In this document: positions 5,390 to 36,837 of the stretch, piece by piece
Layout: every line of letters starts with the position of its first letter
How positions within the stretch are numbered: position 1 is the first letter of the stretch
Source of the DNA: Nitrospinota bacterium
GTDB lineage: Bacteria > Nitrospinota > Nitrospinia > Nitrospinales > VA-1
Reading direction: 5' to 3'
Assembly: GCA_014382285.1 (NCBI GenBank)
Contig: JACNKA010000074.1
Span: 1-43,138, forward strand
Length of the DNA stretch: 43,138 nt
Made by a program: the position numbers and the translations under genes
Notes under the pieces: model-generated
The model's input: only the letters and a program-made list of their open reading frames with translations
Databases searched by the model: none
What the model was told of the DNA's origin: nothing

Positions 5390-7342
5390 ATGAGATTTTT
5401 TACCAAGCCTACCGATAAATCATCTTTAAAGCCTTATTCTAAAAAAAACTGTCTTTCTTTTCTGTCATTAGCAATAATAGCTTTTGCTCTTTTCTTTCTT
5501 TATTCCTGCATTCAGAATGTACCTGGTTCCACTAATACTGTTTCTTCTGAAAAAGCTTCAGCGATGTCGGATAAGAAGACGAACACGATGGAGCAAAAAG
5601 GGTCTGATTCTTCCGTCGAATCTGTGGAGAAAACAACCGACTCGGGTGAAGAAAATTCTGAAAAAGATGTCGCGCTACAGGTGGCAGCAGACCATGAAGC
5701 GCTGTTTGCAGAAAGTAAATTTCCTTCGGCCGCGACCTGCGGCACCTGTCATCCCAAACATTATCGAGAGTGGTCGGTTTCGTCACATTCTTATGCACAG
5801 TTGAGCCCGGTTTATCTTTCTCTCAGCAGTGAGATCAATGAGTTGTCCAGTGGATCGAATGGGGACTTCTGCCTGAGATGCCACAGTCCCATTGGTGCCA
5901 ACCTTGGTGAGTCTCCTTTCATGTCAAACCTGGATCGGCACCCTACATCCCGTGAAGGCATCACCTGTGTGGTCTGCCATCGTTTGAACAAGGACTACAA
6001 TAAAAGGAGTGGAAGATTAGCTCTAGAGCAAGGGGGCCTGCTGGAACCAGTATATGGGCCAATGGGTAATGAAGAGATGGCACGTGTTCTGGATAATACA
6101 GATGAATACCGCGTTGTGACCGAAGAAGGAAAGCCTGGACGAAAAGTTCATAGAGAAGTTAAAAAATTTGCTTCCATCTCACAACCCGTATTTTGTGGAA
6201 CTTGTCACGATGTAACCTTGTTCAATGGTTTCCGCCTTGAGGAGGCATTCAGCGAGTACCGCACTTCTCCGGCTGCGGCTAGAGGAACCACTTGTCAGGA
6301 TTGCCATATGGGTAAAGAACAGGGTGTGGCTTCGGGATATGATGTTGGTCCTGCTGCCATGGTAGGAGGAAAACCAACTAAAGACCGGAAGGTCACCAGT
6401 CACTTTTTTGCAGGGCCGGACTATTCAGTCATTCACCCAGGTATTTTTCCGCATAATGCGGAGGCTCAGGAAATGGCTAGTATGAGAGAGTGGCTTGAGT
6501 TTGATCATAAAGCCGGGTGGGGTACCGATGAGTTTGAAGACAAGGTAACCGAGGATATGAATTTCCCTGTTCGTTGGGACTCGGTCGATGACCGCTACGA
6601 TGCCCGTGAGATTTTAAACAAACAGTTTGAACATTTGGCATTTGCCCGGAAATTACGCCTGGAAGTATTACGAAATGGCTATCACCTGGGAGAAATTGTT
6701 ACCGAGCAGAGTAGTGAGGAAGGCATACACTTTAAGGTTAAGGTTAGTAATCTTACGGACGGTCATAATGTGCCGACCGGGTTTACTGGAGAACGACTTG
6801 TCTGGCTTCATGTTACTGTGACGGATCGTGACGGAAAGGTGGTTCTCGAGTCAGGCGATCTGGACCCGAATGGGGATGTGCGTGACAGGGAATCCTCATT
6901 TGTTCATAATGGAGAACTTCCTTTGGATGGGCAGTTGTTTGACTTGCGATCACGGTTTGTAGTCTCAAACCTGCGTGGTGGAGAGCGGGAGCAAATCATC
7001 CCCATCCCTTATCCCTTGATCACAATTCCTTTTGTGCGACCTTCAATCCAGTCATTGGTGTTATCGGGTGAGCCAGGCACAGAGCGAAACCATCGAAGAG
7101 GTATCGAACCTTCAGGTTATCGTTGGGCTAAATACCGGATTGATGATGAAGTGCTGACCGGCAAGGGTCCTTACATGGCTAAAATCGAACTGAAAGCGGG
7201 TATGGCTCCAGCTAACTTAGTGGGAGCTATTCAGGGACGGGGATTTGACTATGCCATGAGTGCCCGTGAGGTAGTTGACGGCGTTGCCGCTGGTTATGAG
7301 ATTTTGTGGGAAAAAGAAATTACTTTTAAAACTAATAATTAA
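5390..7342 (+). CDS. Pentahaem c-type cytochrome, probable lipoprotein
   Basis: A 650-residue exported multihaem cytochrome. The N-terminus has a basic region, a hydrophobic stretch (22-37) and a lipobox-like LYSC with Cys40, so it is probably lipidated. A low-complexity Ser/Glu/Lys linker (45-95) follows. Five CxxCH haem sites are at C117, C161, C193, C269 and C302, all in the first half and arranged like cytochrome c554-type proteins. The second half has no haem sites and contains a GHNVPTGFTGERLVWL segment of likely beta-sandwich type. It heads a same-strand cluster directly upstream of an outer-membrane barrel gene. An outer-membrane-tethered redox lipoprotein is a reasonable inference; periplasmic enzyme activity (a c554- or octahaem-type relative) is the alternative. 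Confidence 0.85.
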   Translation: MRFFTKPTDKSSLKPYSKKNCLSFLSLAIIAFALFFLYSCIQNVPGSTNTVSSEKASAMSDKKTNTMEQKGSDSSVESVEKTTDSGEENSEKDVALQVAADHEALFAESKFPSAATCGTCHPKHYREWSVSSHSYAQLSPVYLSLSSEINELSSGSNGDFCLRCHSPIGANLGESPFMSNLDRHPTSREGITCVVCHRLNKDYNKRSGRLALEQGGLLEPVYGPMGNEEMARVLDNTDEYRVVTEEGKPGRKVHREVKKFASISQPVFCGTCHDVTLFNGFRLEEAFSEYRTSPAAARGTTCQDCHMGKEQGVASGYDVGPAAMVGGKPTKDRKVTSHFFAGPDYSVIHPGIFPHNAEAQEMASMREWLEFDHKAGWGTDEFEDKVTEDMNFPVRWDSVDDRYDAREILNKQFEHLAFARKLRLEVLRNGYHLGEIVTEQSSEEGIHFKVKVSNLTDGHNVPTGFTGERLVWLHVTVTDRDGKVVLESGDLDPNGDVRDRESSFVHNGELPLDGQLFDLRSRFVVSNLRGGEREQIIPIPYPLITIPFVRPSIQSLVLSGEPGTERNHRRGIEPSGYRWAKYRIDDEVLTGKGPYMAKIELKAGMAPANLVGAIQGRGFDYAMSAREVVDGVAAGYEILWEKEITFKTNN

Positions 7343-7384
7343 TTCAGGACTAACCTTTCTGTGTTACTTGGAGGCTAAGAAAGA

Positions 7385-8808
7385 GTGCGAATGTTTGGCG
7401 CAGTCTTAGATCTGTCTCGTAGAATTATATTCGGGCTTATTTTTGCGGGTATAGTTCTATGCTTTTCTATTCCGGCTTACGCGGATTGGTTTCCCTTGGG
7501 AGACACCTCAGAGGTGAGTGCTTTTTCTGAGGAGCATATCCAGCTGCGTGCTCCTTCTGACACCGGTACGCGTCCTCCGCTGATTTATGAGGGGGGGATC
7601 TTTTTCTCGGAGTAGGAGATCTTTATGAGGGTTTTGAGACCCCTTGGGGAGCTATCTGGCAACCGCAGTTGTGGGTTTTTGGAACCATGCGATCGAGTCT
7701 GCAGATGTTCGAAAATGGTCCCAATAGTACTGCCTCTGAATGGGCCAATCGTCTAGACCTATACGCTAATGTCCAGTTAACTGGAACAGAAAAATTTATC
7801 ATTGGAGCTCGACCTCTAGATAGAAATTTGCCCTCCCAATTTTCACGAGTATCGTTTAACGATAATCGGGGTTCCGGTCAGACTGAATTTAATATGGATA
7901 TCCGGACCATGTTTTTTGAGGGTGACTTGGGAAGTCTGTTTCCCAAGCTGGACCCTGCTGGAACAAAGCCGCTGGATTTTGGGTTTTCCGTGGGAAGGCA
8001 ATTATTGCAGTTCCAGGAAGGCATTATGCTCAATGATGAAATAGATGCCATTGGGATTGTTCGTAATAATATTCATCTTCCAGGTATCCCGAGTTTGAGA
8101 TCTTCTTTCGTGTGGGGTTGGAACGAGGTGGGAAGAAGCAATGCAGGGCGGCATGATGCTGCGAATATGTTTGGGTTGTTTAATTCTGCGGATATGCAGG
8201 ATCTCTCCTGGAATCTGGACATGGTGTATGTTGCTGACAAGGACGCTGTTGGTGATAGTTTTCATGTAGGGTTTTCAACAATTCAAAGAATTGGGGTTTA
8301 CAGCACGGCCTTCAGAATTAATAGCTCGATTGCGGATGGAGCAGATAACGCAAAGGCTGGTACTGGAACCCTTTTCTCTGCCGAAACTTCCTTTACACCC
8401 GAAAAATCTGATGACATCGTATATTTTAATGCCTTTGTTGCGGCTGGAAATTTCACTCAAGTGGGTCGTGAGGCGATAGTTGGCGGGCCGTTGGGGGCTT
8501 TAGGTATCTTATTTGCCTCTCCCAGTATCGGTAATTTCGGGTCTGAATTGAACAGCTTTACGGATGATATGGCTGGATTTGCCACGGGTTATCAGGCATT
8601 TTGGAATCACCATAGGACAAGTCTTACGTTTGAATTGGCCGGTAGAAAAGATACCAGTGGTGAAAGATTTGATGATATAGCTGTTGGTTTTGAGTTCCGC
8701 CAAAGACTGGCCCAAAGAATCCAGCTCCAAGTTGACACCCATTATACTGTCCAGGAAAAGCGTAGTGACGGTTATGGCTTGCGAACAGAAATTCTCTATC
8801 AATTTTAA
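7385..8808 (+). CDS. Outer-membrane beta-barrel (porin-like) protein, interrupted by a -1 frameshift in a G tract
   Basis: Two reading frames make one protein. The first (GTG at 7385, GGAGG 10 nt upstream; ATG 7391 also possible) encodes a signal peptide with likely cleavage after AYA and runs to a stop at 7613-7615. The second frame takes over at a 7-G tract (7591-7597) and reads GDLFLGVGDLYEGFETPWGA and onward to 8808. Adding one G restores a continuous frame of about 475 codons. The mature part alternates short polar and hydrophobic strands and ends in Leu-Tyr-Gln-Phe, the C-terminal aromatic typical of outer-membrane barrels. Located between two multihaem cytochrome genes, it is a good candidate for the barrel of a porin-cytochrome complex. 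The frameshift may be a sequencing error or slipped-strand variation. Confidence 0.75.
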
Positions 8809-8889
8809 TTTGAGAGTGGATCGGGTTTTTCCGGTTTCTGCAATATTTGCTGGGCCGTGTTACCGTTCCCTTTAAAAAGTGAGGGTGTT

Positions 8890-9867
8890 ATGAAGCGAGA
8901 TAATACATATTTCATATTTAAACCTTTTTCTCTGATGGCGTTGGTTTTGGCGGGAGCATGGCTGATTTTTCCTGTCACATCAATGGCCCAACCTTTTTTC
9001 AAAGGTGCCAAACTTTGTGAGGAATGTCATGAAGAAGAGACCAGAATTTGGGAGAAAACCAAGCATTATACGTCTTTTAGGACTGTTCACCGGGAACCCA
9101 CAGATGATAGTAAACCATCTCCCAAGAAAATATTGAGTGCTGTTGGGGGACAGAAACGGATGAAAAGGAATGAAACCTGTTATCTGTGCCATTACACACT
9201 TGAGAAAAAAGATGCCGGTTCCAAGCCGGCTGCAAAGTCTGGGACCTCTTGTGAAAGTTGCCATGGTGCGTCTTCTGATTGGCTGGCGCTTCACGATAAT
9301 TATGGCGGGAAAGATGTTAAGCGAGATCAGGAAATGGCGGATCATAAAGTTAAACGGGTTGTCGATTCCAAGGCGGCAGGTTTGATCTGGCCATCCATGC
9401 AGTATGAAGTAGCAGAAAACTGCATGACTTGTCACGGTCTGGCGCATCCCAGCCTTAAAGCCGATGATTTAGCTAAAATGTTGGGAGCCGGACATCCGAT
9501 TAATCCCAACTTTGAACTGGTTAAATATTCTCAAGGTTCAGTGCGTCACAGACATTATCCTCCAGATATCAAGACCAATGCCGAAATGACACCTAAGGAG
9601 TTGGCGGGTCTTTATGTAATTGGTCAAGCGGCGGCACTGGTTTCCGCCACGGAAGCCATTTCTAAATCTGGTGAGGCTAAATATAAGGAAGCGCAAAACA
9701 AACGAGTTGAGATTGCCAAGTCTGCACTTAGTGGGATTTCTGAAGCGGCAGGGTTATTAGCCGCTCCTACAAGAGAAAATGCTTTAAACTTTATTAAATC
9801 CGTAGCGGGAAAAGATTTGACCGGGGTTGTTGGAAGTAAGCTCCCGGCTAAATCGGATTATAAATAG
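8890..9867 (+). CDS. Periplasmic tetrahaem cytochrome c (c554-like)
   Basis: ATG at 8890 is preferred because GAGG lies 5 nt upstream and the signal peptide starts there; the open frame extends further 5' without a good start. The protein has 325 aa: a signal peptide (hydrophobic 14-28, probable cleavage after SMA near 33), then four CxxCH sites at C43, C97, C121 and C178. A long helical C-terminus (about 230-325) without haem follows. The haem pattern resembles the cytochrome c554/c-prime group of tetrahaem electron carriers. In this cluster it would be the soluble periplasmic shuttle between inner-membrane and outer-membrane cytochromes. That role is inference; the haem count is directly visible. 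Confidence 0.83.
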   Translation: MKRDNTYFIFKPFSLMALVLAGAWLIFPVTSMAQPFFKGAKLCEECHEEETRIWEKTKHYTSFRTVHREPTDDSKPSPKKILSAVGGQKRMKRNETCYLCHYTLEKKDAGSKPAAKSGTSCESCHGASSDWLALHDNYGGKDVKRDQEMADHKVKRVVDSKAAGLIWPSMQYEVAENCMTCHGLAHPSLKADDLAKMLGAGHPINPNFELVKYSQGSVRHRHYPPDIKTNAEMTPKELAGLYVIGQAAALVSATEAISKSGEAKYKEAQNKRVEIAKSALSGISEAAGLLAAPTRENALNFIKSVAGKDLTGVVGSKLPAKSDYK

Positions 9868-9981
9868 GAGTGTATAGCTCGGTTTTGGTTTCCCTGAATC
9901 GTTGATAGTATATTAAGAGTCACAACTCCAGAGTTAGATGACAAGTTTGCCTCTTCCGGTTGTGCATTTTGGAGGTGGTGG

Positions 9982-11703
9982 GTGGCTATAACGACTCAAG
10001 TGCGTCCGCAGAGGTGGGACCAGCCATTCGGTTTGTTTATGACCGAATTGGATGTGGACCGGCTGTTGACCATTCCAGAGATTGCTGCGATAGAAGAGAG
10101 TAAATTCCCCTCTCATTGCTCTCTCAGGGGAATTCTTAAAAATGATGCGCGGATTGTAAAGTACTCAGCGGGGGACATTGTCATCCGTGAGGGGGACTAC
10201 GGTAATTCTGCATTCCTGGTTCTGGACGGTTCACTAAAAGTCGTGTTGTTCCCAGGCCTTCCTGGCCAAATGCTAGGTCGCCGAACCATTCAAAAAAAAA
10301 CCTTTTGGCAAGCCCTCAAACAGCTTTGGAGCCGGAGTAAAATTCCGGAAGTCCGTGATGTGAAACGCTATGGTCTTCATGCTATGGTTCGGGAGGCGGA
10401 GGATTTGGGGGCATCACATGTTTTTCTCCAGGATGTTCCCGCTATTTTAGATAAGAATAAAACCGCTTCTCTGGGAAAAGGAGCGTTATTTGGAGAGCTT
10501 GCCGCCTTGGGGCGAACCCCCAGGACAGCCACTATTTTTGCAGAATCCGATATAGAGCTTTTGGAGATACGCTGGCAGGGACTACGTGAGTTCAGGAAAT
10601 ATGATCAAGGGTGGCGTCGCCTCATTGATCAGCGTTATCGTACCAACGCTCTCAACGCCCACCTAAGGGCGACTTCCATTTTTTCTCACTTGGATGATAA
10701 AGATCTTCAGGAGGTGGCAGATGCCACTCTTTTTGAAACCTACGGAAAATTTGACTGGCATCTAACCTATAACAAGCTTCAAAGTCAGGATAAAATCCAT
10801 GGCATCAAGGATGAACCAATTATTGCCAATCAGGGAGATTATTCAGATGGGATATTATTGGTTCGGGCTGGGTTTGCTCGGGTTTCTATAGACCGGGGAA
10901 ATGGCCAACAGACTCTAACCTATCTGGGTACAGGGGATTTTTACGGCGCGGACGAACTGTTCCGAGTTTGGCAGGGAGACCCTAATGTTGGTATGAGGGT
11001 GACCATCACAGCTCTTGGGTACGCGGAAATGCTCCGGGTACCTAGTAAAATTGTAGAGAAACATCTATTCGCTTACTGGTCATCTGGAAGAGATGGGTTT
11101 AGACAGGCGAATTCGCAGTCTTCATTTGAGTCAAGGCGGTTGCAGGACTTTATTGATCGAACCTTGACAGATGGAGCTTTACTCGAATGGGCGGTTGAAG
11201 AGCGTTTTATAAATGGTACCCAGACGATGTTGATTAACCTTGATCGTTGTGTGCGTTGTGATGACTGTGTTCAGGCTTGCTCCGCAACGCATGGTGGCAA
11301 TCCCAGATTTGTCAGGCATGGCAAGACTTTTGGGAACTGGATGGTGGCCAATGCTTGCATGCATTGTGCTGATCCTGTTTGTATGATCGGTTGTCCAACT
11401 GGTGCGATTCATCGGTCCATGTCCGGAGGAATGGTCATTATCAATGATGATACTTGTATTGGTTGCGAAACTTGTGCGAATTCCTGCCCCTATTCCAATA
11501 TCAGGATGGTGTCGATCAACGATGAGGCAGGGCAATTAATTACAGATCCTCAGAATCAGAAACCCATACTTAAGGCGACGAAGTGTGACCTGTGTGCCGA
11601 CCAGATTAGTGGGCCAGCCTGTGTTTTTGCCTGTCCGCATGATGCCGTGAGCAGGGTAGACTTTAGAAAGATAGAGATTGATGAAAATTCAACAGGGTTT
11701 TAG
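9982..11703 (+). CDS. Cyclic-nucleotide-binding polyferredoxin: two cNMP domains plus four [4Fe-4S] clusters
   Basis: GTG start at 9982 with GGAGG 6 nt upstream. Residues about 60-205 form a cNMP-binding domain with a phosphate-binding cassette FGELAAL..TPRTAT (170-184), split by an insert of about 75 residues (91-165). Residues 230-365 form a second, degenerate cNMP domain (DFYGADELF). The C-terminal third is a DMSO-reductase-B/NrfC-type ferredoxin with 16 cysteines in four groups: C423/426/429/433, C459/462/467/471, C492/495/498/502, C535/538/547/551. There is no signal peptide, so it is cytoplasmic. Its 3' end overlaps the cytochrome b gene. It probably hands electrons to or from the membrane protein under cAMP/cGMP or redox control. 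The regulatory role is inference; the domain fusion is clear. Confidence 0.85.
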   Translation: MAITTQVRPQRWDQPFGLFMTELDVDRLLTIPEIAAIEESKFPSHCSLRGILKNDARIVKYSAGDIVIREGDYGNSAFLVLDGSLKVVLFPGLPGQMLGRRTIQKKTFWQALKQLWSRSKIPEVRDVKRYGLHAMVREAEDLGASHVFLQDVPAILDKNKTASLGKGALFGELAALGRTPRTATIFAESDIELLEIRWQGLREFRKYDQGWRRLIDQRYRTNALNAHLRATSIFSHLDDKDLQEVADATLFETYGKFDWHLTYNKLQSQDKIHGIKDEPIIANQGDYSDGILLVRAGFARVSIDRGNGQQTLTYLGTGDFYGADELFRVWQGDPNVGMRVTITALGYAEMLRVPSKIVEKHLFAYWSSGRDGFRQANSQSSFESRRLQDFIDRTLTDGALLEWAVEERFINGTQTMLINLDRCVRCDDCVQACSATHGGNPRFVRHGKTFGNWMVANACMHCADPVCMIGCPTGAIHRSMSGGMVIINDDTCIGCETCANSCPYSNIRMVSINDEAGQLITDPQNQKPILKATKCDLCADQISGPACVFACPHDAVSRVDFRKIEIDENSTGF

Positions 11704-12508
11704 TCTAGTCCGAATTTGGGTCTACGTGTTTTTTGGGACTCTTTTATTTTTAGTGACATGGATATGGACCTATCAAATTGACAGCACCCTCGGTATTTCA
11801 GCTTTTGCCAATGGATGGATATTATTTGGGATACTGGTTTTTCTTTCTCTTTTTAGTGCCCGCAAGCGATTGCCGTTTTTGCCCCTTGCTTCTTCATCTA
11901 GATGGTTTCTTCTTCATGTGGTTTGCGGATTTCTAGCCCTCTTCTTGTTTTGGCTTCATATCGGAGGCATGTGGTCGAAAGGATTTTATGGGCAGGTGAT
12001 TACGATTCTATTTTATATCACCTCAATTTCAGGAGTGGTGGGACTCTTTATTGAAAAAGTTTATCCCCGTCAGCTAACCCGTAGTGGTGTGGAAGTTATT
12101 TATGAGCGCATTCCAATGGAGATTGCTGAAATAAGAGAGGAAGTCGAGTCCCTCATTCTAAAGTGTACTGAAGAAACCGGCAGTAGTACGCTGGCCGAAC
12201 ATTATCTGGAAACCTTGAGGAGGTATTTTCAAAGGCCACGGTTTTTCATAAATAATATATTTGGTAGCCATCTGCCCCAGCATTGGGTTCGCCAGCAATG
12301 CATGATTTTGGAACGTTTCCTAAATGAAAAAGAACGTGAATATTTAGACAAGGTCTATGCGCTAGCGGAAAAAAAAAGGAAGATAGATTTTCATTATACG
12401 CTTCAAACTTTGCTTAAAACCTGGCTTCTGGTTCACATTCCCTTGGCAGGTGCGGTGATGGCAATGGTGATCTGGCATTTAATCCTTATTATGGTGTTCT
12501 TCGTGTAA
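11681..12508 (+). CDS. Di-haem b-type integral membrane protein (cytochrome b-like)
   Basis: 275 aa from ATG 11681, overlapping the ferredoxin gene by 23 bp; TTG at 11678 is an alternative start. About five transmembrane segments are seen (11-31, 43-60, 75-95, 103-124, 250-272). Two of them carry His pairs separated by 13 residues, H79/H93 and H252/H266, the spacing used for axial ligands of b haems stacked across a bilayer. A cytoplasmic-type charged helical region (130-245) lies between TM4 and TM5. I recognise no named family. The layout suggests a quinone-reactive or electron-relaying cytochrome b coupling the cytoplasmic polyferredoxin to the periplasmic decahaem protein, whose ATG overlaps this stop by one base (TAATG). 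Confidence 0.7.
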   Translation: MKIQQGFSLVRIWVYVFFGTLLFLVTWIWTYQIDSTLGISAFANGWILFGILVFLSLFSARKRLPFLPLASSSRWFLLHVVCGFLALFLFWLHIGGMWSKGFYGQVITILFYITSISGVVGLFIEKVYPRQLTRSGVEVIYERIPMEIAEIREEVESLILKCTEETGSSTLAEHYLETLRRYFQRPRFFINNIFGSHLPQHWVRQQCMILERFLNEKEREYLDKVYALAEKKRKIDFHYTLQTLLKTWLLVHIPLAGAVMAMVIWHLILIMVFFV

Positions 12509-14400
12509 TGGAAGATAATAAGTTTGGTCACGATCAGAGTAATTATGAAAGGCCTAACCTACCCTATCGTTGCGGGAGGGCATCGTTGTGGCAAACTCCA
12601 TGTAATCATGGCCCTGAGGTGGATGGAACCTGCGGTGGAACCCAGGAATGCACCCCGTTTCTAAAAAATGACCGATGGGAGTGCAGGAGGGAGAAAAGAT
12701 TCGGCGGCCCTTGTGAAGATGGCCCTGGGTCGGGTGGAGAATGCTCAATCCAAAGACCGCCATGTGCCCCTCGAAGTACCTTACGGATCATCCGTGGAAG
12801 ATTAGTGCTGCTAGCAGTTAGTATTGTCTTGGCCTTGATAGGTACCTCGCTGGTGTTGGATCCTAAAGTTGGAGGTATGGTCAGTATTTCCGATGCTGGG
12901 CCCTTGTCCAAATCCCATGCCAAGTTTACTGAAAAGGAAGGTTGCGCCACCTGCCATATAGCTTATGGCCAGGGTCCTGTAGAATGGATAAAAGCAGTAT
13001 TCAGCAATTCTGATCTTTCATCCCGGTGTGTGAATTGCCATAGTTTTGGTGGTCCGAGTTTTAAGGCACACAATGCCAATATGTCTCCAGATAGAAAGGT
13101 TGGTGATACGCAATGTGTCATGTGCCATCGCGAGCATAATGGACCAGGCATGAGTGTTAGAGCATTGTTTTCTGATCAGTGCAACTCCTGCCATAAAAAT
13201 AAGTTTACGAGCTTAGAGCATGGGCATCCTGAATTTTCTAAAAAATACCCCTATTTCAACCGTAACTCGATCAAGTTTGACCATGGCTCTCACTTGAAAA
13301 AGCATTTTGAGAATCCCAAGGTTTCTGACAAAGCTCCAGGGTCATGTATAGGCTGCCACATGATAACGCTAGAGGACCGGGAGGTACGACCGAGTAGTTA
13401 TGAGATAGTTTGTGCTGCTTGTCATGATTCGCAGATCAAGAAAAAAGAACTCATACTCCTTAGGCTTCCGGAGTTGGTGCAAAACCGGATTGACCGCGAC
13501 TCTTTGGTGCAGGCATGCAACTTTCCAGAGGGTAATGTCAAAGAGGAGGAAGAATTTCTCAGTGTTTCTACCGAACAACCGGCTTTAGTGAGTGCTTTTC
13601 TTTTAAATATTCCTGAGGATGACCCAGAAATCTATGACCAGCCTATTCAGGATCTGGTTCTTGCCATGGCTGAAGAAAGTAGTGTTCCCTTTGCGGAGTT
13701 GATTGATAGTCAAACGGAAACCCCAATGTCTGAAAATCTGTTGATGGGTTTGAACCCTGAAGTGCTCAAACGTGCGGCTTGCTCTTGGGGGCTGAACCGG
13801 GAGTATGAGTCTCCCGCAGAGGTGAGGTTTGGAGGTTGGTATACGGACATGCTGGAAATCCGCTACAAACCCTCAGGGCATGCTGACCCCGTGGTTAAAA
13901 GCTGGTTAGAGTTTGCCCTGGCTGTGTCTTTAAATCAGAAGGAGGAAGACAAGGCCGCAAGAGCGATTGCTATGCGTGATCAGATTCTTTCTGCTAAAGA
14001 TGGCGTGGGGGGATGCATCAAATGCCATGCGGTATCGGAGGTTAAAAACTCAAAGGTTGGTTCCCACTTAGCTGTGGCATGGAAATATGAAAGTAAAAGT
14101 GACAGCCCTTATGTGCTCTATAAGCATGAAAATCATATTGAAATATTAGGAACCAAAGGCGCATGCTCGAATTGTCATATCCTCAATAAGGAAGTGGACT
14201 ATATGGCTTCTTTTAAGGAATACGACCCCGTTAATTGGGTGAGTAACTTTGAGTTCATCAGTAAGAAGACTTGTATGCAGTGTCATTCGGAGTCACAAAT
14301 TGACCTTGAATGCCAGAAATGTCATTTGTATCATTTCAAACCAAGTTTTAAAAAAGATATGCTTGTCGTGAAGGCAGAGTCAGTTTCAACAACACCGTAG
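12508..14400 (+). CDS. Membrane-anchored decahaem cytochrome c with Cys-rich cytoplasmic N-terminal domain
   Basis: A 630-aa protein with one transmembrane helix (about 97-117). Everything before it is Cys-rich and predicted cytoplasmic; everything after is periplasmic with ten CxxCH motifs at C146, C174, C203, C225, C280, C302, C503, C553, C589 and C602. A haem-free helical region (310-495) separates six N-terminal from four C-terminal haems. The head has eight cysteines (22, 32, 42, 48, 59, 69, 79, 86) and an internal duplication of the pattern P-C-x2-G-P-x3-G-x-C followed by another Cys-x-Pro, suggesting two metal or Fe-S sites. Start and upstream stop overlap by one base. It likely takes electrons across the inner membrane interface to periplasmic carriers; direction is unknown. 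Confidence 0.82.
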   Translation: MEDNKFGHDQSNYERPNLPYRCGRASLWQTPCNHGPEVDGTCGGTQECTPFLKNDRWECRREKRFGGPCEDGPGSGGECSIQRPPCAPRSTLRIIRGRLVLLAVSIVLALIGTSLVLDPKVGGMVSISDAGPLSKSHAKFTEKEGCATCHIAYGQGPVEWIKAVFSNSDLSSRCVNCHSFGGPSFKAHNANMSPDRKVGDTQCVMCHREHNGPGMSVRALFSDQCNSCHKNKFTSLEHGHPEFSKKYPYFNRNSIKFDHGSHLKKHFENPKVSDKAPGSCIGCHMITLEDREVRPSSYEIVCAACHDSQIKKKELILLRLPELVQNRIDRDSLVQACNFPEGNVKEEEEFLSVSTEQPALVSAFLLNIPEDDPEIYDQPIQDLVLAMAEESSVPFAELIDSQTETPMSENLLMGLNPEVLKRAACSWGLNREYESPAEVRFGGWYTDMLEIRYKPSGHADPVVKSWLEFALAVSLNQKEEDKAARAIAMRDQILSAKDGVGGCIKCHAVSEVKNSKVGSHLAVAWKYESKSDSPYVLYKHENHIEILGTKGACSNCHILNKEVDYMASFKEYDPVNWVSNFEFISKKTCMQCHSESQIDLECQKCHLYHFKPSFKKDMLVVKAESVSTTP

Positions 14401-14439
14401 AGTATCAATGGCGGCATGCTTCATCTTTAAGGAGAGATT

Positions 14440-15705
14440 GTGCTAAATATAATATTCAGTTTTGTCGCGTTGATGTTTTTATTAGGGCTTGTAGCCTATG
14501 TGTTGGTGCTATTGGCAAACAACTCGCGCATTCTTGCGATTATCCAGAACAGTGCTGATTTGGAAGCAGAGCTGTTAAAGGCGAAGATCAAAAGCATAAT
14601 GGATCGGCGCGAAATCGAAACAAAACAGATGAAACTGTCTTGGAGCGGTTTTAGAAAGTTTCAGGTGGTCTCTAAAGTCAAAGAAACGGACGATATTACT
14701 TCCTTTTATCTTGCTCCACATGATGGTAAGCAACTGCCGGGGTTTTTACCGGGACAGTTTCTGACTTTTCAGGTTCATTTGCCCAATCAGCCTCAGCCGG
14801 TTATTCGTTGCTATTCTCTGTCCGACAGTCCTTACCATCCGGATCGCTACCGGGTATCTATCAAAAGAGTTCTTGCTCCAAGAGACAACCTTACTGCTCC
14901 TCCTGGACTAATTTCCAACTATTTTCATGATTCCTTAAACGAAAATGATATTGTGGATGTTAAAGCTCCCAGCGGACATTTTTGTCTGAGTATGACGAAA
15001 AAAACTCCGGTAGTGTTTTTAGCGGGAGGGGTGGGAATCACCCCAATTCTCAGTATGCTCAATGCCATCACTGAAATAGGTTCCAAGAGAGAGGTCTGGT
15101 TTTTCTTGGGAGTGAGAAACAGGGAAGAGCATATTATGAAGGAGCATCTGGAAATGGTTGCTAGGGAGAATGAAAACGTTAGCTTGAATGTGTTTTATAG
15201 TTCGCCAGCAGAAACCGATATGTTGAACGAGGATTATCAAGTTCGAGGTCGGATTACTGTAGAAAATTTGAAGGTAATTCTTCCGTCCAATAACTTTGAT
15301 TTTTATATTTGTGCTCCGCCTCCAATGGTCAAAGATTTGAGAAAAGATTTAGACGGTTGGGGAGTTCCCAAAAAAAATATTCATTTTGAGGCTTTTGGTC
15401 CAGCTACGGTTAAAGGTTGCAAGACCGATACTGGCAAGGAACGTATTGCTAAATTCAATATTCATTTTCAAAAGTCGGGCAAAACCCTTGAGTGGGATTC
15501 AAAAGCGGCATCTCTGTTGGAATTCGCAGAAGCGAATCAGATCCTCATTGATTCAGGATGCCGTGCAGGCAATTGTGGAACCTGTCTCACTGCGATTAAG
15601 AACGGTGCGGTGGAATTAGTGGGAGAACCGGGATCGGAGCCCGAAGCAGGTTCCTGTCTTGCGTGTATTAGCATCCCTAAAGATGACTTAACCTTGGATG
15701 CCTGA
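14440..15705 (+). CDS. Membrane-anchored FAD/NAD(P)H oxidoreductase with C-terminal [2Fe-2S] ferredoxin domain
   Basis: GTG start at 14440 with AAGGAG 5 nt upstream. An N-terminal membrane anchor (2-25) and short coiled region (35-65) precede a ferredoxin-NADP-reductase module. The FAD motif RCYSLS is at 123-128 and the nucleotide loop GGVGITP at 196-202. A plant-type [2Fe-2S] domain follows, with ligands C374, C379, C382 and a C-terminal Cys pair (406/409). The architecture resembles NqrF-like, phenol-hydroxylase or flavohaemoglobin reductase components. It ends the cytochrome cluster and is the obvious NAD(P)H entry (or exit) point for the chain. Partner and direction are inferred from gene order only. 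Confidence 0.88.
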   Translation: MLNIIFSFVALMFLLGLVAYVLVLLANNSRILAIIQNSADLEAELLKAKIKSIMDRREIETKQMKLSWSGFRKFQVVSKVKETDDITSFYLAPHDGKQLPGFLPGQFLTFQVHLPNQPQPVIRCYSLSDSPYHPDRYRVSIKRVLAPRDNLTAPPGLISNYFHDSLNENDIVDVKAPSGHFCLSMTKKTPVVFLAGGVGITPILSMLNAITEIGSKREVWFFLGVRNREEHIMKEHLEMVARENENVSLNVFYSSPAETDMLNEDYQVRGRITVENLKVILPSNNFDFYICAPPPMVKDLRKDLDGWGVPKKNIHFEAFGPATVKGCKTDTGKERIAKFNIHFQKSGKTLEWDSKAASLLEFAEANQILIDSGCRAGNCGTCLTAIKNGAVELVGEPGSEPEAGSCLACISIPKDDLTLDA

Positions 15706-16591: not shown

Positions 16592-17647
16592 CTAGCAACA
16601 GGCGCCGTTATCGTTTGCGGAGATGCCTTCCTGAGCCTGAGGCGTGCTACAGTCAAAGGGGCCGTAGTGGGTTGAAAAATCTCCAAGCAGATTGAAATGC
16701 TCGTCGAACCTGGTTTCGCTCAACATTTTACTGGTATTGCCGCAAACGGGTACTGGAATTCCGGTCTGGAAATAATGATGATCGTCCAGGGTGAACCCGT
16801 GTGGGAATTCGGGAATGCTGCCCTTATAGTAGGCGACATGGCCAAAGTTTTCGCAAATGTCTTCGAACTCGCATTTGAAGCTGCGTACGGTCATGGAATA
16901 AAAATCAATCATGCCGGCCTTACGTTGGATGTCTTCATTATTGAGGGTGAGCGGGTTTTTGGAAACAACCCGGTAATCGAGAGCCCCTACGTTTCTCATT
17001 ATACGTCTGAAGTCTTCGATATACAGGGCACCGCCAAGGCATTCGCCGAGTAGAATCGGGTCGGTAGTCAATGGCTCCGGTACCCGTCGTCCAGAAAATA
17101 CGTCTGAGAGATATAACTCTCCACCCGGTTTGAGAACTCGAAAAATCTCACGAAACACACTTTCCTTGTCGGGAGACAGGTTGATCACGCAGTTGGAGAT
17201 AATCACATCTACAGAATTATCTTCCAGGTTTGCCGAAGTGAGGTCTTCTATCCAGCCTTTGCGAAAGTCAACGTTAGGTTTTTCCAGGTTGAAATTTTTC
17301 GTATGAAAATCAATATGTTTTCTCGCAACGGCCAATTGTTCATCAGTCATGTCAATGCCGATGACCATGCCATCAGGGCCTACCACCTGAGCCAGCAGGT
17401 AACAATCGCGCCCGGAGCCGCAACCAAGGTCTACCACGGTTTTTCCATAAAGGCTTGTGGGGAAAGTGGAAGCGCAACCATAAAATCTTGATTGGACTTC
17501 CTCATGTATATTTTTTAAATAAGGGCGTAGATACGCAGGCATGGTATCTGCTGCGCAACAAGCACTGGTCTGAAGGTCATTTTTCGTTTTAAGTATTTTT
17601 CCGTAATAGTTCTGAACGTCCTGAAGAATTTTGGAACGGGTATTCAC
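16592..17647 (-). CDS. arsM: Arsenite S-adenosylmethionine methyltransferase
   Basis: 351 aa starting at GTG 17647, chosen because AGGAG lies 7 nt upstream; the open frame runs further 5' but has no better start. The SAM-binding loop is DLGCGSGRDC at 73-82, followed by a class I methyltransferase core. As(III)-coordinating cysteines typical of ArsM are visible: a CC pair at 30-31, C153 in NCVINL and C203 in GECLGGAL; the C-terminus ends in CC. It methylates trivalent arsenic, giving volatile or exported methyl-arsenicals, and acts in the cytoplasm. No ArsR, ArsB or reductase gene is nearby. A repeat-rich stretch directly upstream may be its control region. Confidence 0.92.
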   Translation of the reverse strand: MNTRSKILQDVQNYYGKILKTKNDLQTSACCAADTMPAYLRPYLKNIHEEVQSRFYGCASTFPTSLYGKTVVDLGCGSGRDCYLLAQVVGPDGMVIGIDMTDEQLAVARKHIDFHTKNFNLEKPNVDFRKGWIEDLTSANLEDNSVDVIISNCVINLSPDKESVFREIFRVLKPGGELYLSDVFSGRRVPEPLTTDPILLGECLGGALYIEDFRRIMRNVGALDYRVVSKNPLTLNNEDIQRKAGMIDFYSMTVRSFKCEFEDICENFGHVAYYKGSIPEFPHGFTLDDHHYFQTGIPVPVCGNTSKMLSETRFDEHFNLLGDFSTHYGPFDCSTPQAQEGISANDNGACC

Positions 17648-17970
17648 TATCGATCTCCTGAAAATTACGCAGTCCTTGCCAGGGCTTTGGTGGCCCTGCA
17701 ATTTTGAATCTATCTTTTTTGAATCAATCCTTGTCGAATCATTCTATATAAAATCTTTTATATATTGAAACTTTTGTCGGTATTCATAAAAAACCCTTAC
17801 AGATGAATTGATTTTTATGAAAAGGAGGGGGTTGGGTAATGTATTGATATAAGAGGTTTTACTCGGCAGCTTGTGTTGAGTGTTCGTTGCATCGGGTTTT
17901 TTTTAATGGAAGTGGGGTTTCTGAAAATTGTCGAAGCTGATCGGGTCTTATATTTTTCCGGAGTCGGACA
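17648..17970 (-). other. Intergenic region upstream of arsM
   Basis: No gene seen. A/T-rich, with the repeat/palindrome cluster listed at 17706-17764; the rest shows no clear hairpin or promoter. Confidence 0.5.
17706..17764 (-). promoter_or_regulatory. Putative arsM operator: three 15-bp-spaced GAATC repeats plus a perfect palindrome
   Basis: On the + strand GAATCTATC (17706), GAATCAATC (17721) and GAATCATTC (17736) are direct repeats with an exact 15-bp period. They are followed at 17745-17764 by TATATAAAA-TC-TTTTATATA, a perfect inverted repeat with 9-bp arms. The block ends about 60-120 bp upstream of the arsM GTG. It resembles a regulator-binding array overlapping a promoter (TATATA boxes on the minus strand). 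ArsR control is an inference. Confidence 0.4.
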
Positions 17971-32689: not shown

Positions 32690-34453
32690 TTATATAGCTA
32701 CGGGGGAGACAGGTTGCAGGTGGCCTTCGGGGTAGACGTATAAAATTTCTTCGGGTGCGATCAATTGCGCGACTTGCAAAACATTTTGATAGCCTTGCAG
32801 GTGGTTGTTGGCAACCGGAACTAAAATGAAGTCGTAGTGTTCGTATCGGAGTTTTTCTATCAAGTCGGCGGAAATTGATTCGGCTGAAAAGAAGCCTGAG
32901 CCGTAGGAATAGATTTGATTCAACCCATCCATGTCTTCCATATCTTTGGCGGAAACATCTTGTCCCAACAGATCGACCTGAGCCTTGCTGTCTAAATTCT
33001 CAAGGATCAGACGGATCATCCAGTTCCTGACATTTCTGAGCACAAGAATTTTGGACCCATCAGGAATTGTTTTGAAAGAAGAGTTGGCGTTGTTTGAAAA
33101 AGTTTTCGATTGCACATGCTCTTTTCCCATATCAAAAGCCGATAGAGCCTTGTTAAAGTTTGTCTGGATTTCCTCAGCAGGATAATGCGGGTATTGGACC
33201 ACAACCTGGCCGTTGCCATCGAACCCTTCCCAGTCTGTCGAGGAGGACAGGAGAGATTCCTCTACGCAGGAGTTATAAAAATCGGTTCCCGGCTGAGGAG
33301 TATTGATAGAAACCTGAATTTCATCGAGCCATCCTTTAGAAGCCATTTCATAAACCAGATCGACTGTTTTCTGGTCTTCTTCCCGACTGGAGCCAAGCCC
33401 GCCGATACTGATGGTTCCATAAAACAACATGCCCAGGCTTTTACCAAACTTAACCATGGAACGAAGCTTGTTCAGGTCGTGTTTTTTACCCAGGGTCATT
33501 TTTTCTGCGACTTGGTCACTGCCGGTCTCAATCCCGAAACGGATTTTGTAATATCCTGCGGCGCGCATTTCTTCCAGAGCTTCTTCATCCAGAGATGCGT
33601 ATTCGCACATGGCTTCGTATTTGAGGTGGTCCAGCCCGGCAGAGCGAATGGTTTTGGCAAGGGAGATATTGAAACTTCTTTTGATATTGTGGACTTCTTC
33701 ATCGAAGAACACGCCTTCCATTTCCGGATATTTCTCGTGCAGGGTGCGGATTTCTTCAACAACGTTGTCAACGTTTCTCGGCCGCCAGTTCAGCTCATCA
33801 TAGTAGAGAGTGGCCGCAGCACAGAAATTACAACGGCGTGGGCAACCTCTTGATCCGTACATTTGAATTTGTTTGTAGCGGCAGTTGGGCTCATGGTAAT
33901 CGATGCGACTGACATCATCATCTTCAGGAAAAGGCAGAGCGTTGATGTCGATCAGTTCGCCTCTGGCATTCGGGTGAACGCCGGCAAGTTTTCGGGAGTC
34001 TTTCCCTGCGATCAGATCAAGAACTGTAAATTCATATTCACCGATGCAAACGTGGTCTGCGACTTTCTGGATATCTTCCGGGTGAGCCATAGGGTGTTGC
34101 CCGGTGAATATCAGTTTCGTCCCAAAAGTTTCCTTGAGCGCGGAGGCCAGACGAAGGTCTTCACGGATTGTGCGTGTTGAGCTTTCCATGATGAGCCAGT
34201 CGGGTTTTTCTGCACTGGCATGTTTGAAATAAGTTTCAAAATCCCAGCCATTGAGCACACCATCCATGAATTTTACGTGATGGTTGGTTTCCCGTTTTAA
34301 AAGGGAAGAGGTGTAGGCCAGTTCCCAGGGGTAATACCCGCAGTTGGTGAAGTTCTTCACACCCAGAGACCAGCGCGAAGGCACATGGACCATGTGATAC
34401 CCATCCCGGTCGACCCCTACAGAATTGGCGACAATGATGTTCATGGTTTTCAT
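32690..34453 (-). CDS. Radical SAM protein with N-terminal B12-type domain and C-terminal Rossmann extension (paralogue A)
   Basis: 587 aa. N-terminal region (about 1-170) has the cobalamin-binding-like fold of BchE-type radical SAM enzymes but no DxHxxG cobalamin His motif. The radical SAM core carries RGCPRRCNFC, i.e. CxxxCxxC near residues 206-213, and DEEVHN and GIETGSD motifs. After about 430 the C-terminus has a Rossmann-like segment (KILVLRNVRNW, later YDFILVPVANNHLQGYQNV). The ATG overlaps the stop of the upstream small gene (TGATG). The close paralogue is 0.6 kb upstream in the same operon. The substrate is not known; methyl transfer or C-C chemistry on a lipid, tetrapyrrole or peptide are all possible. 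Confidence 0.85.
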   Translation of the reverse strand: MKTMNIIVANSVGVDRDGYHMVHVPSRWSLGVKNFTNCGYYPWELAYTSSLLKRETNHHVKFMDGVLNGWDFETYFKHASAEKPDWLIMESSTRTIREDLRLASALKETFGTKLIFTGQHPMAHPEDIQKVADHVCIGEYEFTVLDLIAGKDSRKLAGVHPNARGELIDINALPFPEDDDVSRIDYHEPNCRYKQIQMYGSRGCPRRCNFCAAATLYYDELNWRPRNVDNVVEEIRTLHEKYPEMEGVFFDEEVHNIKRSFNISLAKTIRSAGLDHLKYEAMCEYASLDEEALEEMRAAGYYKIRFGIETGSDQVAEKMTLGKKHDLNKLRSMVKFGKSLGMLFYGTISIGGLGSSREEDQKTVDLVYEMASKGWLDEIQVSINTPQPGTDFYNSCVEESLLSSSTDWEGFDGNGQVVVQYPHYPAEEIQTNFNKALSAFDMGKEHVQSKTFSNNANSSFKTIPDGSKILVLRNVRNWMIRLILENLDSKAQVDLLGQDVSAKDMEDMDGLNQIYSYGSGFFSAESISADLIEKLRYEHYDFILVPVANNHLQGYQNVLQVAQLIAPEEILYVYPEGHLQPVSPVAI

Positions 34454-35046
34454 CAGGCGTGAGTGACAACTTTATTGGATTCCCGTGCCGGGGCTTGATA
34501 AGGCTTGTGAGAAGCAGCTTTTTTGCCGAGCAGTTTGCGGACTCCCCATTCTCCGATCAACGCCAGAGTAATGATGAAACAAAGCAGGGCCGTGGCGGCA
34601 TAATTGATTCCCAGCCAGAAGAATGTGGTCTTCTCCATGATGGATTTGCGCAACGCCTTGGCAGAGTCCAGTTTTACGAAGGTGCCTTTGGGATTATAAC
34701 CGCGTACTTCTGTTGCCTTGCTGGCACAAGCTAAACGATCGATATTGGCGTAACCCAACCCGTGGTCAATATTGTAAAGGGAGATCGCAAGATCAAACTT
34801 CTTTGCTTGCAGGCGAGCGATGTTTTCCTTGCCGTAGCTGGAGATACTCATTCTGCGTTGATCTGGAAGGGTGAGTACCTCATCCACGAGAGGATCTTGT
34901 GCTACGGCTTCCCGGGCGGATTGCGGAGCCAGAACGGTGATTCGGCAGTCCGGGAACTCTTCTCTCAGGGAAAGTAGCGTTGGGTTCAGAATCCGTGTAG
35001 CGGAACGAATCACCAGAATATTTACTTGGCTTTTCTGCTCATTCAT
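34453..35046 (-). CDS. Membrane-anchored stand-alone glycosyltransferase-9-like half domain
   Basis: 197 aa. Residues about 8-125 resemble the N-terminal Rossmann half of ADP-heptose glycosyltransferases: VNILVIRSATRI, LREEFPDCRITVLAP, DPLVDEVL, FDLAISLYNIDHGLGY. The same pattern forms the C-terminal extension of both neighbouring radical SAM proteins. A TM helix at about 143-168 is followed by a basic tail. It lacks the nucleotide-sugar-binding C-terminal half, so it is unlikely to be a full glycosyltransferase. It starts 3 bp after the upstream stop and overlaps the downstream start. It may dock the two SAM enzymes at the membrane (inference). Confidence 0.72.
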   Translation of the reverse strand: MNEQKSQVNILVIRSATRILNPTLLSLREEFPDCRITVLAPQSAREAVAQDPLVDEVLTLPDQRRMSISSYGKENIARLQAKKFDLAISLYNIDHGLGYANIDRLACASKATEVRGYNPKGTFVKLDSAKALRKSIMEKTTFFWLGINYAATALLCFIITLALIGEWGVRKLLGKKAASHKPYQAPARESNKVVTHA

Positions 35047-35049
35047 AGA

Positions 35050-36837
35050 TTATCCGGGAATATGAGCGCGACCAAAGTCGCCGGGGTTTTCCAGGTCAAA
35101 CACTTTGCCTTCGACATTGACGGCGACCAGTTTTTTGATTCCGGAACGCTTTGCAATGGCTTTGACTTCGGAGTAGCCGTTTCCGGAAATATTATTAAAA
35201 GGAATCACGCCCAGTGAAAACGATTTCTTTTTTAGCTGCCCCATTAAACTTTCGGGGAATGTTGCCTGATTGAAATGTGAGTCGCCATAAAGGAGCACTT
35301 CATTGACGTGTGGATTTTTCCTCAACTCCTGCTCCACTCCGGGTTGCGCAAGAACCGTTACTTCCTTGTTGAACTGGTTGTGGATGGAGTCCACGACATC
35401 GTGTACCTGTTTCATCCTTGAGCTGCGAAAAAGAAGAATCTCGCCATTGGATTTGAGTTGCAGGTTTTTAAAATTATTCTTGGCGGTTGCATTGTAGCGT
35501 TGGTTGAAACCTACTTCATAAAGTTTCTCTGCTTCCCTGAAATTCGCCATGATTTTGTCAGCCGGGTATTCCGGGCGGTTGACGACGACATGGTTTCCTC
35601 CGTCAAAATGTTTCCAGTCCATATCCTGAAGATAACCCTGTTCTTTCATGCGATTGAAGAACGGGGTGCCAGGTTGCGGGGTGCTGATGGAAAGCTGAAA
35701 CCGCCACAACAGACTTCGATCAAGAAGTTCGCGAATGAGGTCGAGAGTTCTTTTGTCGCAATCATCGGTGGAGCCTTCACCTCCGAAGGTGAAAGTCCCA
35801 TAAAATTTCAGGCCGATGCTGGTGCCATGTTTCATGAGTTCTTTGAGCCGAGGGACATTGAATTTTTTCTGTAGTTCCATTCCCTTCGCAGCGTGTTCGC
35901 CGGCGGTTTCTATTCCGAGTCGAACCATGTAATAGCCGGCACTTTTCATGTTATCGAGGACTTCTTCATCCATAGGCCATTGACCGCACATGACATCATA
36001 TTTCAGATCGTCGAGTCCGTTTTCGCGGATTGCTTTGGTCAGTTCCAGAATGTATTTTTTGCTGCCGTTATGAACCTCTTCGTCAAAAAAGATTCCTTCC
36101 AATTGAGGATACCTGGCACGCAAGGTCTGTAATTCGTAGATCACGTTTTCCGGGTTTCTTGGTCGCCAGTTAGGACGTTGGTAGGAAATATTTCCACATA
36201 CGCAGAAGGTGCAGGACAAGGGACAGCCTCTGGAGGCATAGGCCTGAATTTCCAGGTATTCGCTGGAAGGCTCACCGGGCATTCCGTATTGCAATCGGGA
36301 GACGTCATCATCTTCAGGAAGCGGCAAGTTGTTCACATCAAGCGGAGGCCTGATGTTGGTATTAGGCCAGAGCCCCATAATGGATTCAAGAGCTTTGCCC
36401 TGAAGGATATCGAGCACAACCATTTCATATTCCCGCAGAACAACATGGTCGGCGTATTCGCTCACCTCTTCAGGAAAAGTAGTGGGATGAGGCCCGCAGA
36501 AAATCAACTTTGTTCCGAACCTTTTTTTAACTTCCTTGCCGAACCGGCTATCGGCGTCGATGGTGCGTGTGGCGCAGTCCATGATCAGGTAATCCGGGCC
36601 GAATTCGGAGACTTTTTCTACAAACGTATCGTGATCCCATTTTTCCAGGCAGCCATCAAAAAATTTGACTTCGTGGTCGGTATCCCGTTTCAGGATCGAA
36701 GAACAATAAGCCAACTGCCAGGGATAATATGTGAAAATGTTGTGGTCTTTGGTGCTGTTGGTCCAGCGACTGGGGGAGTGGATCATGGCATACCCGTCGG
36801 CGTCAATTCCAACAGAATTACAAACGGCTACTTTCAT
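35050..36837 (-). CDS. Radical SAM protein with N-terminal B12-type domain and C-terminal Rossmann extension (paralogue B)
   Basis: 595 aa, first gene of the operon. Parallel to paralogue A through most of its length (shared SPSRW, YYPWQLAY, EDDDVSR, RGCPLSCTFC cluster near 211-218, NWRPRN, FFDEEVHN, GYY.VRLGIET, STPQPGT). The C-terminal part has NGEILLFRSSRM, NKEVTVLAQPG, NPHVNEVLLYGD and SLGVIPFNNISGNGY, the same Rossmann-like domain as its neighbours. The two enzymes probably act as successive or alternative catalysts on related substrates. Upstream there is a tandem repeat and no obvious promoter; the ATG has only a weak Shine-Dalgarno. Confidence 0.86.
   Translation of the reverse strand: MKVAVCNSVGIDADGYAMIHSPSRWTNSTKDHNIFTYYPWQLAYCSSILKRDTDHEVKFFDGCLEKWDHDTFVEKVSEFGPDYLIMDCATRTIDADSRFGKEVKKRFGTKLIFCGPHPTTFPEEVSEYADHVVLREYEMVVLDILQGKALESIMGLWPNTNIRPPLDVNNLPLPEDDDVSRLQYGMPGEPSSEYLEIQAYASRGCPLSCTFCVCGNISYQRPNWRPRNPENVIYELQTLRARYPQLEGIFFDEEVHNGSKKYILELTKAIRENGLDDLKYDVMCGQWPMDEEVLDNMKSAGYYMVRLGIETAGEHAAKGMELQKKFNVPRLKELMKHGTSIGLKFYGTFTFGGEGSTDDCDKRTLDLIRELLDRSLLWRFQLSISTPQPGTPFFNRMKEQGYLQDMDWKHFDGGNHVVVNRPEYPADKIMANFREAEKLYEVGFNQRYNATAKNNFKNLQLKSNGEILLFRSSRMKQVHDVVDSIHNQFNKEVTVLAQPGVEQELRKNPHVNEVLLYGDSHFNQATFPESLMGQLKKKSFSLGVIPFNNISGNGYSEVKAIAKRSGIKKLVAVNVEGKVFDLENPGDFGRAHIPG

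Follow-up and report, generated by a model that had tools for sequence, protein, structure and literature searches.

The window analyzed here, a stretch of 43,138 nucleotides (contig JACNKA010000074.1, assembly GCA_014382285.1), belongs to a 2.97-Mb metagenome-assembled genome (MAG) whose host falls in the family Nitrospinaceae. Seven co-directional open reading frames (ORFs) lie on its + strand at 5390-15705, named here in gene order pentaH, barrel, tetraH, polyFd, cytB, decaH and FNR, and together they may encode a chain that carries electrons from NAD(P)H across the cell envelope to the outer membrane. CxxCH haem motifs numbered 5, 0, 4, 0, 0, 10 and 0 per ORF in that order, and the genes were tightly packed, with intergenic gaps of approximately 49, 81, 114, -23, -1 and 39 bases. 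Haem motifs, candidate distal histidines and Fe-S cysteines were near-invariant across the 50-92 sequences compared per protein, and chance was therefore ruled out for the gene set. An earlier note on this DNA had listed the same seven genes and their redox motifs, and all were recovered as ORFs, CxxCH counts and Pfam domains. Promoter- and terminator-like sites were not more frequent than in shuffled sequences.

The inner part of the cluster begins with polyFd (9982..11703, +), a cytoplasmic protein with tandem cyclic nucleotide-binding (CNB) domains and four [4Fe-4S] sites; CNB (PF00027, E = 5e-25) and 4Fe-4S domains were both assigned by Pfam. Its polyferredoxin part (11248..11634, +; residues 423-551) contains 16 cluster cysteines, conserved throughout, which make up the four sites. 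The first CNB domain carries a phosphate-binding cassette (10480..10542, +; residues 167-187, GALFGELAALGRTPRTATIFA), reading FGELAALGRTPRTAT in the window, of which G171 was present in 92/92 sequences and E172 and R181 in 91/92 each; the cassette was missing from the second CNB domain. Because a mere relic would not be expected to keep the cassette from phylum to phylum, a nucleotide bound at the first CNB domain probably matters. Of 20 cluster-bearing genomes, 17 had a class III cyclase, a presence that looks confounded with genome size.

The neighboring cytB (11681..12508, +; ATG at 11681, residues numbered from the ORF start at 11678) is a putative di-haem b cytochrome with about five transmembrane (TM) helices and a helical cytoplasmic domain. 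His80, His94, His253 and His267 were all kept in 91/91 sequences, two on each of two predicted helices at a spacing of 14 residues; with the positively charged loops placed inside, one b haem would lie near each membrane face. The AlphaFold2 model was all-helical (mean predicted local distance difference test score, pLDDT, 95). A Foldseek search of this model against the PDB gave chance matches only and no meaningful solved fold, a PDB sequence search gave no match, and the window copy matched no Pfam or NCBIfam family; some homologues weakly matched the b561 and DUF4405 families.

The last gene, FNR (14440..15705, +), encodes an N-terminal TM helix, FAD and NAD domains, and a C-terminal [2Fe-2S] domain (Pfam). 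Its link to polyFd is best seen in divergent clusters (genomes G044 and G002; loci L152, 3780-13377, and L153, 3619-13263), whose genes encode, in order, pentaH, barrel, a protein of c554 type, a 10-haem protein of reduced length, a fusion protein of 870-884 residues and cytB. The fusion holds Fer2, FAD-, NAD-, two CNB and 4Fe-4S domains in a single chain, with the CNB cassette intact. Since reductase and CNB-polyferredoxin domains are joined in one chain, the two are supported as acting in sequence, and the fusion is the strongest evidence for it. Fer2 stands at the opposite end of the reductase part relative to the window FNR, so a direct joining of the window's FNR and polyFd genes does not account for the fusion. 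The shorter 10-haem protein of the divergent version was without a Cys-rich domain, and Etf-like genes were seen nearby in L152.

Two cytochromes would continue the path into the periplasm. The decahaem cytochrome decaH (12508..14400, +) is anchored by a single TM helix, and an alignment of 87 sequences contained ten haem motifs and ten conserved extra histidines, nine of them invariant and one present in 70/84. The periplasmic tetrahaem cytochrome tetraH (8890..9867, +; the ORF opens at 8857) is of the c554 type, with a c554-type domain in Pfam and, across 67 sequences, four haem motifs and four conserved candidate distal histidines. This matching of haems and histidines, 10/10 in decaH and 4/4 in tetraH, is the pattern expected of bis-His electron wires rather than of catalytic haems. 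Upstream of its TM helix, decaH carries a Cys-rich N-terminal domain (12571..12765, +; residues 22-86), whose eight cysteines were invariant within the family and whose pattern was kept in other phyla. Given the orientation expected of an anchored periplasmic cytochrome, this domain would be cytoplasmic and could touch polyFd. No match to decaH was found by PDB sequence search, and none to plasmids.

The outer part of the cluster consists of pentaH and barrel. The 650-residue pentaH (5390..7342, +) is a pentahaem c-type cytochrome of the ExtKL / pentahaem c552 type, with a signal sequence and possible lipobox, five CxxCH motifs and a C-terminal non-haem domain; Pfam assigned a c554-type domain. 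Five haem motifs were found in 50/50 homologues, together with 6-7 conserved histidines outside them, and judged by these residues pentaH may be an electron wire too, or may have a catalytic role. It matched the pentahaem c552 of Thermochromatium (5ze8) at E = 1e-15, and 34/35 pentaH members matched the ExtKL model, the window copy scoring 38.2 bits against the ExtKL equivalog, which is significant but far under the 250-bit cut-off. ExtKL, the pentahaem cytochromes (PHCs) of cable bacteria and Thermochromatium c552 have been united in one PHC family (PMC11976967), and this kinship links pentaH to proteins associated with extracellular electron transfer. The core of pentaH, with five CxxCH motifs of c552 type followed by a C-terminal non-haem domain, has the layout of that family, but here the protein occurs next to barrel and, in most cases, together with the inner-membrane module described above. 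The 'pentahaem lipoprotein' of the earlier note is plausible for the window copy, but a lipobox-like site was found in 10/50 homologues, and most relatives are without one.

The barrel gene (7391..8808, +) encodes an outer-membrane beta-barrel of about 470 residues in relatives. The ORF called at 7669 is the 3' part only (7669-8808); the real start lies at about 7391, with a signal peptide, and the 5' and 3' parts stand in different frames in the assembly, shifting at a G run near 7590. The gene read through in every relative with a complete copy. An aminotransferase (KBL/AONS-like, 793-2124, +) in the same window had a stretch of about 40 residues garbled relative to its relatives, which suggests base-calling errors in the contig. 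For this reason the break in barrel is likely also a base-calling fault, a real mutation being possible. No Pfam or NCBIfam family was matched. As the window copy is broken, the structure was modeled from a relative (locus L025; mean pLDDT 85) and had about 18 strands. Its best Foldseek matches in the PDB were Campylobacter MOMP, Occ/OprD channels and AlgE (TM-score about 0.5-0.65, about 10% identity), and MtrB was not found among the 50 best matches listed. The expectation that neither outer protein would group with solute porins or soluble enzymes was upheld for pentaH, whose kin are ExtKL and c552; for barrel the sequence groups with no family, but the solved folds nearest to its model are solute channels.

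Conservation of the locus was analyzed within the family and beyond it. The order polyFd-cytB-decaH-FNR was collinear in the Nitrospinaceae loci found, and all seven genes occur together in this family. The pentaH-barrel pair stood upstream of tetraH in most Nitrospinaceae loci, was divergent in one (genome G026), and in three genomes (G021, G024 and G025) lay with tetraH on a different contig from the inner module. Across the 64 genomes of the order, full-type decaH was present in 20, and pentaH in 20/20 of these; the genomes are related, and hence are not 20 independent cases. A single genome of the 64 (G036) had pentaH without decaH, and three (G002, G019 and G044) had only distant homologues of both. 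As the two modules are retained together even on different contigs, the pattern argues for a joint function of decaH and pentaH.

A scan of GTDB species genomes with polyFd returned at least 579 relatives, of which the best 80 were kept as named loci. These were distributed (NCBI phyla) over Pseudomonadota (33), Verrucomicrobiota (21), Planctomycetota (21), Nitrospinota (2), Kiritimatiellota (1), Hydrogenedentota (1) and SAR324 (1). Besides polyFd, cytB was present in 75 of the best 80 loci, decaH in 74, FNR in 64, tetraH in 56, pentaH in 41 and barrel in 38. The complete seven-gene set, with 4/10/5 haems, was found in 34 of the 80, and in 21/35 of those loci that were at least 19 kb long. Twelve genomes without pentaH at the locus were followed up; seven carried it elsewhere, beside barrel in six of the six examined. 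The pair was thus adjacent in Nitrospinaceae, in the named loci, and in separate loci of other genomes. Two named strains, Tistlia consotensis USBA 355 and Ferruginivarius sediminum WD2A32, carry all seven genes. The earlier proposal that the genes are conserved together was strongly borne out, both by the Nitrospinaceae loci and by the complete sets in several phyla.

Quick phylogenetic trees differed between the modules. In the polyFd tree, Nitrospinaceae fell in a fully supported 22-row group made up mostly of Alphaproteobacteria. The pentaH tree had two deep types, and Nitrospinaceae were placed in the other one, with Gammaproteobacteria and Rhodovibrionaceae. Distances of the inner and outer modules were correlated (r = 0.56, with 0/999 permutations as high), with exceptions such as loci L043 and L117. 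On these trees and distances, the modules appear to travel together yet to have been swapped between lineages, and such exchange is expected of parts that meet via a generic electron carrier.

With the parts, their conservation, the FNR-polyFd link, the pairing of the modules and the intact sequence of the CNB site computed directly, the seven genes are best read, at a probability of about 0.58, as a trans-envelope chain fed by NAD(P)H that sends electrons to the outer membrane. Membrane-anchored FNR would draw electrons from cytoplasmic NAD(P)H via FAD/[2Fe-2S] and pass them to the [4Fe-4S] clusters of polyFd, which would dock on cytB. The electrons would then cross the membrane from the b haem at H80/H253, near the cytoplasm, to that at H94/H267, near the periplasm, and on to the ten haems of decaH. 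As a periplasmic shuttle, tetraH would carry them from decaH to pentaH and barrel at the outer membrane, and, on the pattern of Geobacter ExtI/ExtKL, an acceptor would be reduced at or beyond it; the flow would be switched by a cyclic nucleotide bound to the CNB domain of polyFd. The first link, from FNR to polyFd, is backed by the fusion and the later links by topology and co-conservation; the order of the later steps, the direction, the gating and the acceptor are inferred. The idea of one functional unit, with a candidate for every step from cytoplasm to exterior, therefore stands from NAD(P)H as far as the outer membrane. From established bioenergetics, outward flow from NAD(P)H would be downhill and aided by the membrane potential. 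If it also bypasses the quinone pool, no energy would be conserved by the flow itself, and the chain would then suit a regulated outlet, redox balancing, or metal or oxyanion reduction better than a main respiratory chain. A stronger version, in which the set is a ligand-gated, quinone-independent NAD(P)H conduit switched by cAMP, cGMP or a relative, spread over several phyla of aquatic and soil bacteria with interchangeable modules and built on a cytochrome b fold new to the PDB, is put forward tentatively and is rather unlikely to hold in all its parts.

Gene neighborhoods were screened, and no further gene family recurred as an obvious functional partner. A glutamate dehydrogenase-like gene was seen near the cluster at L042, L045, L049, L061 and L106 (several Alphaproteobacteria and one Verrucomicrobium). 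In the window, an ArsM-like arsenite methyltransferase gene (16592-17701, -) adjoins the cluster; it was beside the cluster only in genera g1 and g9, at nine loci plus the window, and other genera of the family were without it. The adjacency could be an arsenic link or plain synteny, and arsM was rejected as a functional partner because it is limited to two genera. Further along (32690-36837, -), translations indicated two similar B12-binding radical-SAM-like proteins on either side of a smaller ORF.

Several results weigh against an NAD(P)H-fed chain that ends at the outer membrane. The modeled barrel fold resembles solute channels, and the barrel has fewer strands than MtrB. No conserved surface cytochrome was found in the loci, pentaH is mostly not a lipoprotein, and no neighboring enzyme or regulator points to an acceptor. 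Some cluster-bearing genomes more than 90% complete (G031 and G056) had no class III cyclase. Five Verrucomicrobia genomes hold the inner module with pentaH absent, so not every host needs the outer end; such loci may use a different outlet. Inner modules accompanied by an ORF of about 1300 residues with multiple haem motifs were seen at five Verrucomicrobia loci (L074, L082, L083, L095 and L100), several of which had a 3-haem gene on the opposite strand, and no pentaH was found in the genomes of this group that were tested.

In its make-up, a porin plus a pentahaem cytochrome of the periplasm with no evident cytochrome at the surface, the outer end recalls ExtI/ExtKL, and the Geobacter ext cluster is the closest point of comparison for it. 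That cluster encodes the porin ExtI, 5-haem ExtKL, 10-haem ExtN, 4-haem ExtS, cytochrome b ExtP, Rieske ExtO and 12-haem ExtM (PMC5877670, PMC6148476). In extHIJKLMNOPQS, as here, the porin adjoins a pentahaem ExtKL-type cytochrome and 10-haem, 4-haem and b-type cytochromes are encoded in the cluster, these latter being likened by haem count and type. The sets differ in that ours includes polyFd and the NAD(P)H reductase FNR, pentaH falls far below the ExtKL cut-off, and barrel matches no NCBIfam model; Rieske ExtO, rhodanese ExtH and 12-haem ExtM were found neither in the window cluster nor recurring in the neighborhoods.

The alternative that survives best keeps the same inner chain and makes barrel a selective channel that imports an oxyanion or chelated metal, which pentaH reduces in the periplasm, with nothing delivered outside. 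We regard this as unlikely. In its favor, the fold neighbors of barrel are substrate channels, pentaH mostly has an ordinary signal peptide, and its 6-7 additional histidines would suit such a role. In Geobacter, loss of ExtI lowered the reduction of selenite and tellurite but did not lower that of Fe(III) citrate, and the authors of that study favor a selenite channel (PMC5877670). The ArsM-like neighbor in two genera leans the same way, but is not kept outside them; likewise, a barrel of 18 strands is of generic size, and the sequence joins no porin family. Against periplasmic reduction, extHIJKL, whose porin and periplasmic pentahaem cytochrome come with no c-type cytochrome of the outer membrane, alone sustains Fe and Mn oxide reduction in Geobacter; as the sole conduit it kept Fe(III) oxide reduction at 52% of the wild-type level and Mn(IV) oxide reduction at up to 75% (PMC6148476).

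It is improbable that cytB instead exchanges electrons with the quinone pool, with FNR and polyFd as an additional arm and energy conservation or bifurcation possible. The model for such a quinone-linked complex is CbcL, in which a di-haem cytochrome b is linked to nine c haems and receives its electrons from the quinone pool (PMC9129911), and the b561 and DUF4405 matches of some cytB homologues are in keeping with it. In both systems a di-haem cytochrome b would pass electrons to a c-type cytochrome with multiple bis-His haems. CbcL, however, is a single protein with six helices, whereas cytB is a separate protein of about five TM helices whose gene accompanies those of a CNB-polyferredoxin and an NAD(P)H reductase, and decaH has a Cys-rich domain of its own. 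FNR in the same operon, and the fusion of its domains to polyferredoxin in the divergent variant, point to direct NAD(P)H entry. No quinone site was recognized, in an analysis that made no search aimed at one.

Electron uptake, with Fe(II), Mn(II) or a partner cell as donor to the outer module and NAD(P)+ or ferredoxin as the final acceptor, is very doubtful. Several host MAGs (the OFTM series) came from a single tunnel biofilm with iron oxidizers (PMC11995701), and several cluster-bearing genomes gave no nitrite oxidoreductase match. Transfer from P-side cytochromes to NAD(P)+ would nevertheless run uphill in redox potential and against the membrane potential, the neighborhoods showed no tie to Fe(II)-oxidation genes, and the nitrite oxidoreductase pattern is based on few, incomplete MAGs. 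As to that pattern, a nitrite oxidoreductase-like match (TIGR03479) was absent in several Nitrospinaceae that carry the cluster, among them G021 (96% complete, about 10 contigs), and many cluster-free genomes of family f1 did give one; given small numbers and MAG gaps, this is only a lead. The narG model (TIGR01580), probably the wrong one for their nitrite oxidoreductase, had no match in Nitrospinaceae.

An ordinary MtrCAB- or Pcc-type conduit (PMC4245776) is scarcely credible: a porin, multihaem cytochromes and an inner-membrane cytochrome are present in kind and a barrel is encoded together with multihaem cytochromes in both, but barrel size and haem counts differ, the barrel of about 18 strands matches neither MtrB nor Omb, and no 10- or 12-haem surface lipoprotein was found. 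A wide MtrB/Omb-type barrel, and an 8- or 10-haem periplasmic partner with a 10/12-haem surface cytochrome, are lacking from the set; its only 10-haem protein, decaH, is anchored N-terminally in the inner membrane, and the remaining cytochromes carry 4 and 5 haems. The earlier note was correct that this is not a standard MtrCAB or Pcc set.

The outer pair thus resembles ext, and the plan of a cytochrome b with a multihaem partner resembles Cbc; no described counterpart was found for the CNB-polyferredoxin / NAD(P)H entry. The Verrucomicrobia clusters of He et al. (2017; PMC5615132), whose uncharacterized porin and multihaem genes are a suggested apparatus of extracellular electron transfer, were also compared and set aside as another system. 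Clusters of at least three multihaem genes were reported in 2025 from Nitrospinaceae MAGs including OFTM6, their role being called unclear (PMC11995701). Nitrospinaceae bacterium OFTM6 is our locus L041 and carries this set, and we infer that the reported clusters include these genes. As far as was found, no description or function of the seven-gene set has been published, in a literature search that mostly did not reach subscription journals.

If an NAD(P)H-fed trans-envelope chain is the correct reading, Nitrospinaceae, Planctomycetes, Verrucomicrobia and marine Alphaproteobacteria, bacteria not generally known as metal reducers, would possess a route by which electrons of NAD(P)H reach the outer membrane. 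As named strains carry all seven genes, the question is testable by gene removal. The conduit would possibly also be one under second-messenger control.

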